DNA from: Myxococcales bacterium
GTDB taxonomy: Bacteria > Myxococcota > Myxococcia > Myxococcales > JAJYLH01
Length of the DNA stretch: 53,635 nt
Assembly: GCA_021787845.1 (NCBI GenBank)
Contig: JAJYLH010000041.1
Coordinates: forward strand, 1 to 53,635
Direction of reading: 5' to 3'
Both the position numbers and the translations under genes were made by a program. Positions 7,704 through 53,635 of the stretch are shown one piece after another (positions within the stretch are counted from its first letter, which is position 1; every line of letters starts with the position of its first letter). The notes under the pieces were generated by a model, which saw only the letters and a list, made by a program, of their open reading frames with translations, did not search any database and was not told where the DNA came from.

Positions 7704-7945
7704 AATTCTTGGGCTCCTCAACAGAATCTGTGCGTGGAAAGCACCTCTCGGGAAGCCGGACACGTGAGTGTCCGGGTTGGGCAGTGCCGTTCGCCGCTCC
7801 CCGACCGTCCTGTCGCCCGACGCGAAGATCTTGACGTGCAGTTCTCGCGATCGACGAACGCGGTGCCTGCACCCGGACACTCACGTGTCCGGCTTCCTTG
7901 TCTCGCCCGTAACCCGCACAGATTCTGTCGGAGAGCCAATTCTTG
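7704..7945. mobile_element. 226-bp MITE-like element, copy 1, with 8-bp target duplication
   Basis: The element spans 7712-7937. Its ends are 23-bp inverted repeats with three mismatches; the left end begins GGCTCCTCAACAGAATCTGT. It is flanked by perfect 8-bp direct repeats, AATTCTTG at 7704-7711 and 7938-7945. A second copy at 50261-50486 has exactly the same length and differs at four positions only. Inside are two inverted hairpins, CCGGACAC/GTGTCCGG with loop GTGA at 7756-7775 and its reverse complement at 7873-7892. It has no coding capacity for a transposase, so it must be moved in trans. Confidence 0.85.
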
Positions 7946-16528: not shown

Positions 16529-16617
16529 GCGTCGCTCCAGCGAAGTGGCGGGCGCATCCTCGCGTCGAAGCGGCGGGGACGCAAGCGGGACGTGCGAAAC
16601 GCCGCGGTTGGAGGATC

Positions 16618-16656
16618 AGACCGATCGGTCGGATCGGTCCGATCGGTCCGATCATG
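16618..16656. repeat. 9-bp palindromic tandem repeat (CCGATCGGT)n
   Basis: Between the SDR gene and the sigma-54 activator gene, GACCGATCGGTC-type units repeat with a 9-bp period for about four units. The same motif recurs at 43918-43952 and 45189-45227, always between genes. Every unit is itself palindromic around GATC, so the block can fold in several registers. Confidence 0.65.
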
Positions 16657-42908: not shown

Positions 42909-43903
42909 GCGCATCGCCGGCGCGCGCCGCGCTCGACCGCGCGCTCGAGTCGCCGGAGGCGTCGGGTGAGGCGGTGCGCTTCGACCTCGAGGCGGAGGAG
43001 GGCGCGCCGGCGATCGAGAGCATCGTCGCCCAGCCGCGCGGCGCGCACTGGCTCTTCGCGACCTATGGCCTCACGCGGCTCGACGAAGAGCCCGCGGCGC
43101 CGAGGCGCGGCTACGAGCTCGTCCTGCGCGTCCCGGTGGACGGGACCGCTTCCGCCGCACCGGAGGGGAGCCCAAGGGTAGAGGCGCCGGCAGCGCCGCT
43201 GTGGCCGGTGGAGCTCCTGCGCGCGGTCGCGAGCTACCTCGAGTCGACCGGTGCCGAGTTGGCGGACGGGCACACCGTCGATGTCGGCGGGCCGATCGCG
43301 CGCGATGTCGAGACGAAGCTGACCGCGGTGGTCGCGGTGAACGATCCGGCGATTGCGCCGTTCGAGACGCCGTTCGGACCGGTGCGCCTCTTGGAGTTGG
43401 TCGGCATCGCCGCCGACGAGCATGACCTCCTGCTGGACTGGAGCGTTGCCGGGCTCATCGAGTTGCTCGCGCGGGACAATCCGCTGCTCGTGACCGACCT
43501 GCGGCGCGAGTCGATCCTCGAGACCGCTCTCGCTTCCGAAGCGCGGGCGCGGGCGGAGCGCGAAGGCTCGTCGCTCGAACGCCTGTCGGCCGACCTGCGG
43601 GTCCAGATGGACGACTCGGGCCGGGTGGCGAGTGTCGCAGTCGGCCCGACCGCGGTGGGCCCCCTCCGGAGGGTGCTCAAGAGCCGTCTCGGTCACCAGA
43701 AGACGGTGACGATCGACGGGAGCGCTGGCGTCCTCCAGATCGTACCCGGCGAGGAGCCGGGCTGGACCGCCACCGACGACGGCGTGCGCCTGACCCTGCC
43801 TGCCGAGGTCGCGCTCGACTGGCAGGAGGAGCTCGCCGAGCAGCCGCCGGAGGTGCCGCGCGCTTTCGTGCAGGACTTCTGGGTGGTCCTGTCGGCGGAC
43901 TGA
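42905..43903 (+). CDS. Suppressor-of-fused (SUFU) domain protein
   Basis: The ATG at 42905 overlaps the TGA of the HD-GYP gene by 4 nt. Of its 332 residues, about 30-215 match the SUFU family: HWLFATYGLTRLDEE, RGYELVLRVP, WPVELLRAVASYLESTG, FETPFGPVRLLELVGIAADEHD and LLARDNPLLVTDL. The C-terminal 110 residues are not assigned. Bacterial SUFU proteins often occur as immunity-like or adaptor proteins, and no toxin is next to this one. Tight coupling to an HD-GYP regulator suggests a protein partner of that regulator; this is inference. Confidence 0.85.
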   Translation: MSASPARAALDRALESPEASGEAVRFDLEAEEGAPAIESIVAQPRGAHWLFATYGLTRLDEEPAAPRRGYELVLRVPVDGTASAAPEGSPRVEAPAAPLWPVELLRAVASYLESTGAELADGHTVDVGGPIARDVETKLTAVVAVNDPAIAPFETPFGPVRLLELVGIAADEHDLLLDWSVAGLIELLARDNPLLVTDLRRESILETALASEARARAEREGSSLERLSADLRVQMDDSGRVASVAVGPTAVGPLRRVLKSRLGHQKTVTIDGSAGVLQIVPGEEPGWTATDDGVRLTLPAEVALDWQEELAEQPPEVPRAFVQDFWVVLSAD

Positions 43904-43917
43904 GCCGCGCGCGATTC

Positions 43918-43952
43918 GACCGATCGGTCCGATCCGACCGATCGGTCCGATC
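43918..43952. repeat. 9-bp palindromic tandem repeat (CCGATCGGT)n
   Basis: GACCGATCGGTCCGATCCG and its continuation lie in the 66-bp gap between the SUFU-domain gene and the rRNA methyltransferase gene. The motif is the same as at 16618-16656 and 45189-45227. Confidence 0.65.
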
Positions 43953-43969
43953 GCGGTTATCTTCCGCCG

Positions 43970-45163: not shown

Positions 45164-45188
45164 CGGCGCCTGTCCGCTGGCGCCTGAG

Positions 45189-45227
45189 ACGACCGATCGG
45201 ACCGATCCGACCGATCGGTCCGATCGG
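45189..45227. repeat. 9-bp palindromic tandem repeat (CCGATCGGT)n
   Basis: GACCGATCGGACCGATCCG followed by more units fills part of the gap between the methyltransferase gene and cmk. It is a third copy of the intergenic GATC-centred palindrome array. Confidence 0.65.
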
Positions 45228-45280
45228 ACATCTTCCCCGCGCCCGGGGCGATCGCATATGTTCGCGACGGGTCTTGCGCC

Positions 45281-50252: not shown

Positions 50253-50494
50253 ACCTAAGTGGCTCCTCAACAGAATCTGTGCGTGGAAAGCACCTCTCGG
50301 GAAGCCGGACACGTGAGTGTCCGGGTTGGGCAGTGCCGTTCGCCGCTCTCCGACCGTCCTGTCGCCCGACGCGAAGATCTTGACGTGCAGTTCTCGCGAT
50401 CGACGAACGCGGTGCATGCACCCGGACACTCACGTGTCCGGCCTCCTTGTCTCGCCCGTAACACGCACAGATTCTGTCGGAGAGCCACCTAAGT
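50253..50494. mobile_element. 226-bp MITE-like element, copy 2, with 8-bp target duplication
   Basis: The element is 50261-50486 and differs from copy 1 (7712-7937) at four positions, with identical length. It is flanked by ACCTAAGT at 50253-50260 and 50487-50494. Its 8-bp duplication differs from that of copy 1 (AATTCTTG), so the two insertions were independent. Its right flank is the left arm of another inverted-repeat element at 50488-50750, so it probably inserted into that element's edge. Confidence 0.85.
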
Positions 50495-50750
50495 AGGCAG
50501 CCCCGGAAGTTCGCTAACGGATTCGACGGCTCCGTTTTCGCGACGCGCGACGGCTTGAGCCGCGTGGCGTCAGCCCGCGGTAGCCAGCAATACCGCGCGG
50601 GCTGACACCACAGCTTCGCTTCGCCGAGCGAGGCGCCGACCCCGCGGTAGCCAGCAAAACCGCGGGCTCACGCCACGCGGCTCAAGCCATGCCAACCTCC
50701 GCGACACGGCCACCCCAACCGTTAGCGAACTTCCGGGGCCGCCTACTAAG
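50488..50750. repeat. 262-bp element with long nested inverted repeats
   Basis: Outer arms of about 32 bp begin with CTAAGTAGGC at the left and contain CCCCGGAAGTTCGCTAACGG; they are matched in reverse at the right end with very few differences. Inner arms of about 30 bp (GGCTTGAGCCGCGTGGCGT) are at 50551-50580 and 50660-50688. No coding potential is seen. The design suggests a MITE or a large cruciform-forming repeat, distinct in sequence from the other families. Confidence 0.7.
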
Positions 50751-50753
50751 CGA

Positions 50754-51039
50754 CAGGCTTTTCGGGTTGACGCAAGTACCACCGGGTTGGCGCGCCGCTC
50801 CCTGACGGTCGCGGTACCGATCAGGCTGCCGCGTTCGCGAGTCAGAAGTCAGCGCCGCTCCCTGACGGTCGCGGTACCGATCAGGCTGCCGCGTTCGCGA
50901 GTCAGAAGTCAGCGCTGCTCCCTGACGGTCGCGGTACCGATCAGGCTGCCGCGTTCGCGAGTCAGAAGTCCGTACCGCGACCGTCAGGGAGCGGCGCTCT
51001 GGGCCAGCGACTCCGGCTTGCATCAACCGGACAAGCAGA
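50754..51039. mobile_element. Element of the 131-bp family carrying a 60-bp tandem repeat
   Basis: The left end GGCTTTTCGGGTTGACGCAAG-like sequence and the right end, in reverse TGCTTGTCCGGTTGATGCAA, form imperfect terminal inverted repeats of the TATCCGGTTGAC family. The interior is almost wholly a 3 x 60-bp direct repeat plus an inverted half unit. Flanks CTAAGCGA and CCGGATCG show no duplication. Confidence 0.5.
50792..50999. repeat. Three 60-bp tandem repeats ending in an inverted copy
   Basis: The 60-bp unit containing GCCGCTCCCTGACGGTCGCG is repeated three times, from 50792 to 50970, with at most one or two changes. The sequence at 50971-50999 is the reverse complement of the first 27 bp of the unit. 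The unit length is a multiple of three, so open frames run through it by chance. There are no spacers, so it is not a CRISPR array. Confidence 0.85.
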
Positions 51040-52659: not shown

Positions 52660-53124
52660 ATGGCCCGCCGCTCGACGACGACACCCTCCCCGCACCCGGA
52701 TGTCACGACCCGCGACCAGTGGCGCGCCTGGCTCGAGCAGAACCACCTCACCACGTTCGATGTCTGGATCGTCACCGGCACCGCCGCACCAGACGAGACC
52801 GTCCTGGGATACGAAGACGCGTTCGAGGAAGCGCTGTACTTCGGCTGGGTCGAGGTCGCGACCCGCCGAGGTCCTCTCGGGCATACGGCTCGGCAATTCC
52901 GGCGGTCCCCGGGCTACTGGCCGGAGGACTATCGACGGCCGGTGACGGAGATGCTCGCCCAGCTCAAGGCGGATTCCAACGCATGGCTGGGGTTTCGGCG
53001 CATGAGCCCCGTGCGTCGGCGCGCGGAGCTGCGCTGGATTCTGCAAGCGAGGAGCGGCGAGGGGCGCAAGCACCGATACTCCCAGGTGGTCGCCCGCCTG
53101 CTCCAAGACGCGCGAGGGGACTGA
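52660..53124 (+). CDS. YdeI/OmpD-associated-family protein
   Basis: The ATG at 52660 has GAGGAG upstream and gives 154 residues. RDQWRAWLEQNHLTTFDVWIVTG and YEDAFEEALYFGWVEV match the N-terminal YdeI pattern (WLEENH... and EALCFGWID in relatives). ARQFRRSPGYWPEDYRRPVTEML corresponds to the QRFTPR...W region. The family is small, cytoplasmic and of unclear function, linked to stress in enterobacteria. The C-terminus is shortened compared with the usual 190 to 200 residues. Confidence 0.75.
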   Translation: MARRSTTTPSPHPDVTTRDQWRAWLEQNHLTTFDVWIVTGTAAPDETVLGYEDAFEEALYFGWVEVATRRGPLGHTARQFRRSPGYWPEDYRRPVTEMLAQLKADSNAWLGFRRMSPVRRRAELRWILQARSGEGRKHRYSQVVARLLQDARGD

Positions 53125-53158
53125 CCGCGCGGCCGGTCATCCCGCAATCAGCGCCGTC

Positions 53159-53635
53159 TTTCCTGGATCGACGAGGCGCGGATCTCGCCCGGACGCCATC
53201 TTCCGCCGATCGGCACCGAGCCGATCCGGCAAAAGTGCCATCTTTCGCGGATCGGCATCGAGCCGATCCGGCTAAAGTGCCATCTTTCGCGGATCGACGA
53301 GGCGTGGATCTCGCTCGGACGCCATCTTTCGCGGATCGTCGTCGAGCCGATCCGGCAAAGGTGGCGTCTTCCGCGGATCGACGACGCGCGGATCTCGCCC
53401 GGACGCCATCTTTCGCGGATCGTCGTCGAGCCGATCCGGCAAAGGTGGCGTCTTTCGCGGATCGACGAGGCGCCGATCTCGCCCGGACGCCATCTTCCGC
53501 GGATCGTCGTCGAGCCGATCCGGCAAAGGTGGCGTCTTTCGCGGATCGACGTCGAGCCGATCCGGCAAAGGTGGCGTCTTTCGCGGATCGACGAGGCGTG
53601 GATCTCGCCCGGACGCCATCTTCCGCGGATCGTCG
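53159..53635. repeat. 42-bp tandem repeat array running off the window
   Basis: Eleven full 42-bp units and 15 bp of a twelfth are present. Two main types alternate: one contains ATCGACGAGGCGCGGATCTC, the other ATCGTCGTCGAGCCGATCCG. All start TTTCGCGG or a close variant. The unit is a multiple of three, so several frames stay open; on the minus strand it would read DPRKMASGRDPRLV and DPRKTPPLPDRLDD from 53619 to 53272, with a TAG there. The array starts about 35 bp after the YdeI-like gene. The right border is outside the window. Confidence 0.9.

Follow-up and report, generated by a model that had tools for sequence, protein, structure and literature searches.

A 226-bp MITE (MITE A), present in two near-identical copies in the stretch of DNA analysed here, is very probably a non-autonomous derivative of an insertion sequence of the ISL3 family, as judged from its ends and target duplications. 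The stretch, called the window, comprises 53,635 nucleotides and is contig C152 of a draft assembly of 153 contigs and 6.24 Mb. A preliminary description of the window had read the element as a MITE. This holds for the element as a whole, but the interior, which had been missed as such, is a separate REPIN-like repeat that is also found alone.

The two copies and their ends

The coordinates and lengths of the two copies, and the four differences between them, were confirmed by alignment (Table 1). Both copies are 226 bp long, and the differences are at element positions 89, 156, 183 and 203. Each copy is enclosed by its own perfect 8-bp target-site duplication (TSD), as had been described: AATTCTTG is private to copy 1 and ACCTAAGT to copy 2. 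The sequences outside the TSDs are unrelated, with an identity of 23-40%, which is about the chance level. The terminal inverted repeats, given earlier as 23 bp long, do start with GGCTC and contain ACAGAATCTGTGCG, but they are imperfect, with 20 of the 23 positions pairing and 3 mismatches. The end sequence is GGCTCCTCAACAGAATCTGTGCG, and the end pattern can be written as GGCTC...ACAGAATCTGTG. The element is short, contains no transposase gene and has no space for one. Both copies appear to be intergenic, judged without a systematic calling of genes. Copy 2 is found about 150 bp downstream of a gene for a protein with six S1 domains, which is probably ribosomal protein S1.

Table 1. Positions of MITE A, MITE B and their parts in the window
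Feature	Position	Strand	Evidence
MITE A copy 1 (226 bp), ISL3-type ends and REPIN-like core	7712..7937	+	genome-wide search, alignment
Left TSD of copy 1, AATTCTTG	7704..7711	.	8/8 identity with 7938-7945
Right TSD of copy 1, AATTCTTG	7938..7945	.	sequence
Left terminal inverted repeat of copy 1, GGCTCCTCAACAGAATCTGTGCGTG	7712..7736	+	25/25 identity with right end of C16 ISL3 relic
Right terminal inverted repeat of copy 1, GGCTCTCCGACAGAATCTGTGCGGG on - strand	7913..7937	-	sequence
REPIN-like core of copy 1: two inverted REP-like palindromes CCGGACACnnnnGTGTCCGG with unique middle between	7754..7894	+	palindrome count; bare occurrence elsewhere
MITE A copy 2 (226 bp), 4 substitutions relative to copy 1	50261..50486	+	alignment
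Left TSD of copy 2, ACCTAAGT	50253..50260	.	sequence
Right TSD of copy 2, ACCTAAGT	50487..50494	.	sequence
Third, divergent MITE A (359 bp), no TSD, enlarged by nested MITE B	28199..28557	+	ends GGCTCCTCAACAGAATCGGTGC / GGCTCCCCGACAGAATCGGTGC
MITE B (131 bp), TIR CATGCCTATCCGGTTGACACACTTG, with its own REPIN-like core, inside third MITE A	28241..28371	+	TSD GATCGAGG at 28233-28240 and 28372-28379

Copies in the genome and an empty site

A search of the genome with the 226-bp sequence gave 110 matching stretches: about 20 near-full elements and, for the remainder, fragments. The census is based on sequence searches and on retrieved contig stretches. Some copies are aligned in mixed orientations, which does not affect the readings of the ends and the TSDs. 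Perfect 8-bp TSDs are present in nine of the about 20 near-full elements: AATTCTTG, ACCTAAGT, CGAAATCG, GGAATCAA, TGGAAAGG, CTGGAAAC, GAGAAGAT, GCCCGCTG and GTCTTTCG. Eight of these are seen as aligned; the ninth, GTCTTTCG of the copy on contig C46, was read by inspection, allowing for a degenerate left end. Three further copies have imperfect TSDs, with 7/8 matches on C133, 6/8 on C56 and a match shifted by one base on C12. An intact 8-bp TSD is absent from about half of the roughly 20 near-full copies examined. The lack of an intact TSD in several copies fits decay or recombination.

The chance expectation for an 8/8 flank match is 4^-8 per element. Since nine of about 20 elements have such a match and an empty site is known, the TSDs are not due to chance. 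The A+T content of the nine TSDs is 53%, compared to 31% for the 8-mers of the window. The empty site is provided by a copy on C65, which is inserted within another dispersed repeat, an uninterrupted paralogue of which is found on C5. The junction reads CTACGAAATCG-(226 bp)-CGAAATCGGGAGC on C65 and CTACGAAATCGGGAGC, with a single 8-mer, on C5; the uninterrupted C5 sequence CACCAAGATCTACGAAATCGGGAGCG corresponds to CACCAAGATCTACGAAATCG-(226 bp)-CGAAATCGGGAGCG on C65. The two paralogues are 96% identical over 160 bp spanning the junction. This pair is direct evidence that insertion gives rise to the 8-bp repeats.

Some bare or half copies (L016, L012) resemble products of recombination at the palindromes, and the copies could be regarded as segmental duplications or products of homologous recombination rather than of transposition. 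Such an origin is scarcely credible given the private TSDs of the window copies, their unrelated flanks and the single 8-mer of the empty site. Matching flanks, which would be a sign of segmental duplication, were looked for at copies 1 and 2 and are absent; segmental duplication was rejected on the basis of the unrelated flanks and the empty site. The copies, the private TSDs and the empty site support the original view of a MITE that transposed recently and generated 8-bp TSDs.

In 116 genomes of the same order, the search for MITE A gave nothing beyond weak matches of 29-39 bp in two of them, and the TIR patterns of MITE A and of MITE B, a second family described below, do not occur in any of 194 further genomes from the same phylum. 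The set searched includes no other genome of the same family or genus.

Relation to the ISL3 family

The ends of MITE A and its 8-bp duplication point to the ISL3 family, and the transposase of this one family (PF01610, DDE_Tnp_ISL3) was searched for throughout the genome. The genome contains a single PF01610 match, at C16:41165-41434 (E 7e-20). It is a 5'-truncated relic of an ISL3 transposase with an in-frame TGA. The C-terminus of the relic reads LPEPEFTHRFC*, and the stop codon is located within the terminal repeat. The last 25 bp of the relic are identical to the left end of MITE A at 25 of 25 positions. An intact ISL3 transposase was not detected in the genome, a draft of 153 contigs in which full copies may be missed. 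We infer that an active ISL3 transposase existed recently, and such an enzyme would have moved MITE A.

In plasmids, the search gave ISL3 relatives with C-termini that are about 60% identical. When three Paraburkholderia copies were compared, the left end could be placed at GGCTCGTCGGCGGAATCTGTGGGTG, and two of the three have 8-bp TSDs, ATTCTGAA and GAATTTTT. Contigs were also scanned for ISL3 C-termini with a two-row seed, the second row of which, a stitched chimera of two relatives, was used for searching only. The scan of GTDB genomes gave 80 ISL3 loci. In many of them the right end resembles GGYTCNTCAGCAGAATCTGTGGGT and includes the stop codon. At eight of the loci, a left end is paired with the right one and the 8-bp TSD is perfect (CAATTTCC, GGTTTTCC, TATTTTCC, GTTTCTTC, GAAAAGGC, ATTTTTCT, ATTTAAGG and TTCTTCAC), and several loci had no left end detected in the TIR search. 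A related genome of the same order, G002, carries an ISL3 match.

The better ends of the full-length ISL3 relatives agree with the MITE A end at 19-22 of 25 positions. Their weaker ends agree at 16-17 of 25 and are uninformative on their own, because a chance 25-mer of the window outside the elements reaches 18/25. Past about 25 bp, the shell of MITE A gave no demonstrated match to any ISL3 element. Among ISL3 insertion sequences, of which an element on a plasmid of Paraburkholderia aromaticivorans BN5 is one example, the nearest subgroup has an end sequence like that of MITE A, and there the stop codon of the transposase falls within the right end, which is also the case for the C16 relic. 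Both the insertion sequences and MITE A have 8-bp, A/T-rich target duplications. The insertion sequences encode a transposase, whereas MITE A does not, and only the ends are common to the two. The classical direct-repeat length of ISL3 is 8 bp, and A/T-rich examples have been given (PMC7643977). CLJ-ISL3, an isoform of ISPst2, has ends GGGTATCCGG... and belongs to a different subgroup than MITE A (PMC7643977).

The ISL3 ancestry of MITE A is well supported because the end of the relic, the ends of the relatives and the 8-bp A/T-rich duplications all speak for it. Transposases of the IS6, IS66, IS256 and IS1595 families also make 8-bp duplications and had been proposed earlier as possible mobilisers. 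The length of the duplication is compatible with each of them. They are not the best match, however, as the end of the ISL3 relic is identical over 25 bp and the ISL3 relatives have similar ends, the same duplication length and A/T-rich targets; with ISL3 as the only family searched genome-wide, it is very unlikely that one of these four families moved MITE A.

In the proposed mechanism, the ends of about 25 bp would be recognised by an ISL3 DDE transposase acting in trans. The enzyme would join MITE A to a staggered cut in the target, giving rise to the 8-bp duplications, and the targets would be mostly A/T-rich 8-mers within a GC-rich genome.

The REPIN-like core

The shell of MITE A accounts for about 43 bp on each side. 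The 141-bp interior (element positions 43-183) is bounded by an inverted pair of the palindrome CCGGACACnnnnGTGTCCGG. This palindrome, with at most 2 mismatches, occurs 417 times in the genome, compared to 0 for the reversed control. A sample of 51 perfect palindromes was taken in contig order. Of these, 7 are enclosed by a full MITE A shell and 5 by a full MITE B shell; a further 10 have a single MITE end close by, and the other 29 have none. Because these 29 have no MITE end nearby, the REPIN-like unit exists independently. The boundaries of the bare units are typically TTGGAG...CTCCAA.

The core has the structure of a REPIN, an inverted pair of palindromic REPs in many copies, and known REPINs likewise occur in hundreds of copies (PMC3116915, PMC2817692). 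Their REPs have the head GT(A/G)G, whereas the head in this genome is mostly TTGGAG, and one REP adjacent to the RAYT-like gene described below has GTAGGAG. Because of this head, the core is named REPIN-like by its structure and is not called a GTAG REP. Of the 40 cores placed in a tree, 15 have both MITE ends, and all but one of these 15 (14) form a group together with one bare and one half-shelled copy. Most of the bare cores are diverse and have long branches. The simplest reading of the tree would be one main capture of the REPIN-like unit by MITE A and subsequent amplification of the composite. The core of the copy on C8 (L021) is divergent; it may stem from a second capture or belong to an older branch.

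RAYT-like genes

A Y1/HUH-type ORF (L103, C84:47203-47679, minus strand) has six REP palindromes around it, spaced in 51-bp steps: four in direct orientation upstream and two inverted ones downstream. Such an arrangement, with the same REPs around a Y1/HUH gene, has been described for RAYTs (PMC2817692). The matches of the ORF to known families are weak, with a Pfam score of 21.5 against a cut-off of 23 and 17.6 bits for the NCBIfam RAYT model. The predicted protein has His where the one homologue compared has Tyr (LAHVLEGQ versus CQYTNDMQ), and the gene may be inactive.

The REPIN-like core and this gene, surrounded as it is by the same REPs, could suggest that the whole 226-bp unit was moved by a RAYT/REPIN system and that the GGCTC ends are extra sequence only. 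The 8-bp TSDs, however, are found exactly outside the GGCTC ends, whereas HUH/Y1 transposition is not known to make a target duplication. With the Tyr to His difference of the RAYT-like protein as a further point against it, such a movement is most improbable. In the preferred mechanism, with an ISL3 transposase as the mover, the REPIN-like unit, which is otherwise dispersed alone and associated with the RAYT-like HUH gene, would have entered the MITE shell through the action of RAYT and would then have been amplified with it.

A second HUH gene (L102, C24:50422-50640) scores 81.2 bits against a cut-off of 80 for the NCBIfam REP-associated tyrosine transposase. No CCGGACAC palindromes are present within about 1.5 kb of this gene. 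Its translated flanks on either side look similar, as if the gene had a repeat family of its own.

MITE family B

The third member of MITE A in the window was absent from the preliminary description. It contains a copy of MITE B, a family that is unrelated to MITE A. The 25-bp ends of MITE B, CATGCCTATCCGGTTGACACACTTG, are found at 116 sites in the genome and at none in the control. Perfect 8-bp TSDs are present in 12 of the 27 end pairs examined, and 16 of the 27 match at 7/8 or better. A second MITE A entered by MITE B is located on C52, with the duplication CGTGCTTC. At least one REP palindrome is present in 22 of the 27 MITE B elements. Where both B ends are present, the cores belong to several interior lineages, other than those of MITE A; these sets were selected via their ends, so that the counts are biased, and the contig-order sample of 51 palindromes is closer to unbiased.

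The REPIN-like unit could also be the ancestral interior of the MITE, with the bare REPs as MITE remnants that have no ends, which would be compatible with the ISL3 explanation. For QMITE2 of Coxiella, a loss of MITE ends that leaves REP-like remnants has been described (PMC10969869), and some of the bare cores have a single MITE end. This origin is nevertheless unlikely: the bare units are diverse and include many interior lineages not seen in shells, the unrelated shells A and B carry different core lineages, no MITE end lies near 29 of the 51 REPs sampled, and the RAYT-like gene is flanked by REPs. Beyond the capture of the unit by MITE A, we tentatively consider the possibility, itself rather doubtful, that DDE-type MITEs of this genome repeatedly pick up REPIN-like units as cargo. 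Shells A and B, which are unrelated, would each have acquired units of several interior lineages and spread them by a second mechanism of transposition, and the single-strand (HUH) repeat would hitch-hike on double-strand (DDE) elements, perhaps following decay of its own transposase.

Known parallels

A REP within a MITE is already known from QMITE2 of Coxiella burnetii, a bacterial MITE of 150-190 bp, which has a REP inside as does MITE A (PMC5896051). The REP-in-MITE principle is therefore not new, since QMITE2 was described earlier. QMITE2 has long direct repeats of 7-11 nt, compared to 8 bp in MITE A. The REP of QMITE2 is of the GTAG type, and the paper makes no mention of ISL3 (PMC5896051). 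MITE A differs from QMITE2 in that its core is an inverted REP pair, which is abundant outside the MITE and is present in a second MITE family. Compared to REPINs and RAYTs as described, the unit in this genome travels also inside DDE-type MITEs. With respect to the open-licence literature searched, it is new that a MITE of this kind is assigned to ISL3, that its core is an inverted REP pair and that cores of this type occur in two MITE families that are unrelated but share a genome; earlier reports may exist. An orphan MITE family is in this way assigned, with high probability, to one transposase family, with an empty site in the same genome. A genome with REPIN-type hairpins in two MITE families would also be a natural test of the spread of REPs by MITEs independent of RAYT.

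Other repeats

A 32-bp inverted repeat, CTAAGTAGGCAGCCCCGGAAGTTCGCTAACGG (window 50489-50750), directly adjoins copy 2 of MITE A. It surrounds another palindrome, GGCTTGAGCCGCGTGGCG; a MITE B on C52 contains a relative of this palindrome. A recurring 14-mer, ACAGAATCCGTGCC, which is like the motif of the MITE TIR, occurs at six sites (L069-L074, on C5, C18, C25, C44, C95 and C148), and these sites are possibly another repeat family. Tandem repeats in the window include three 60-bp units (50792-50978) and a 42-bp array (53113-53635) that runs off the end of the window. Short arrays of 9-bp units of the GATCGGTCC type are located at 16590-16654, 43898-43962 and 45180-45235.
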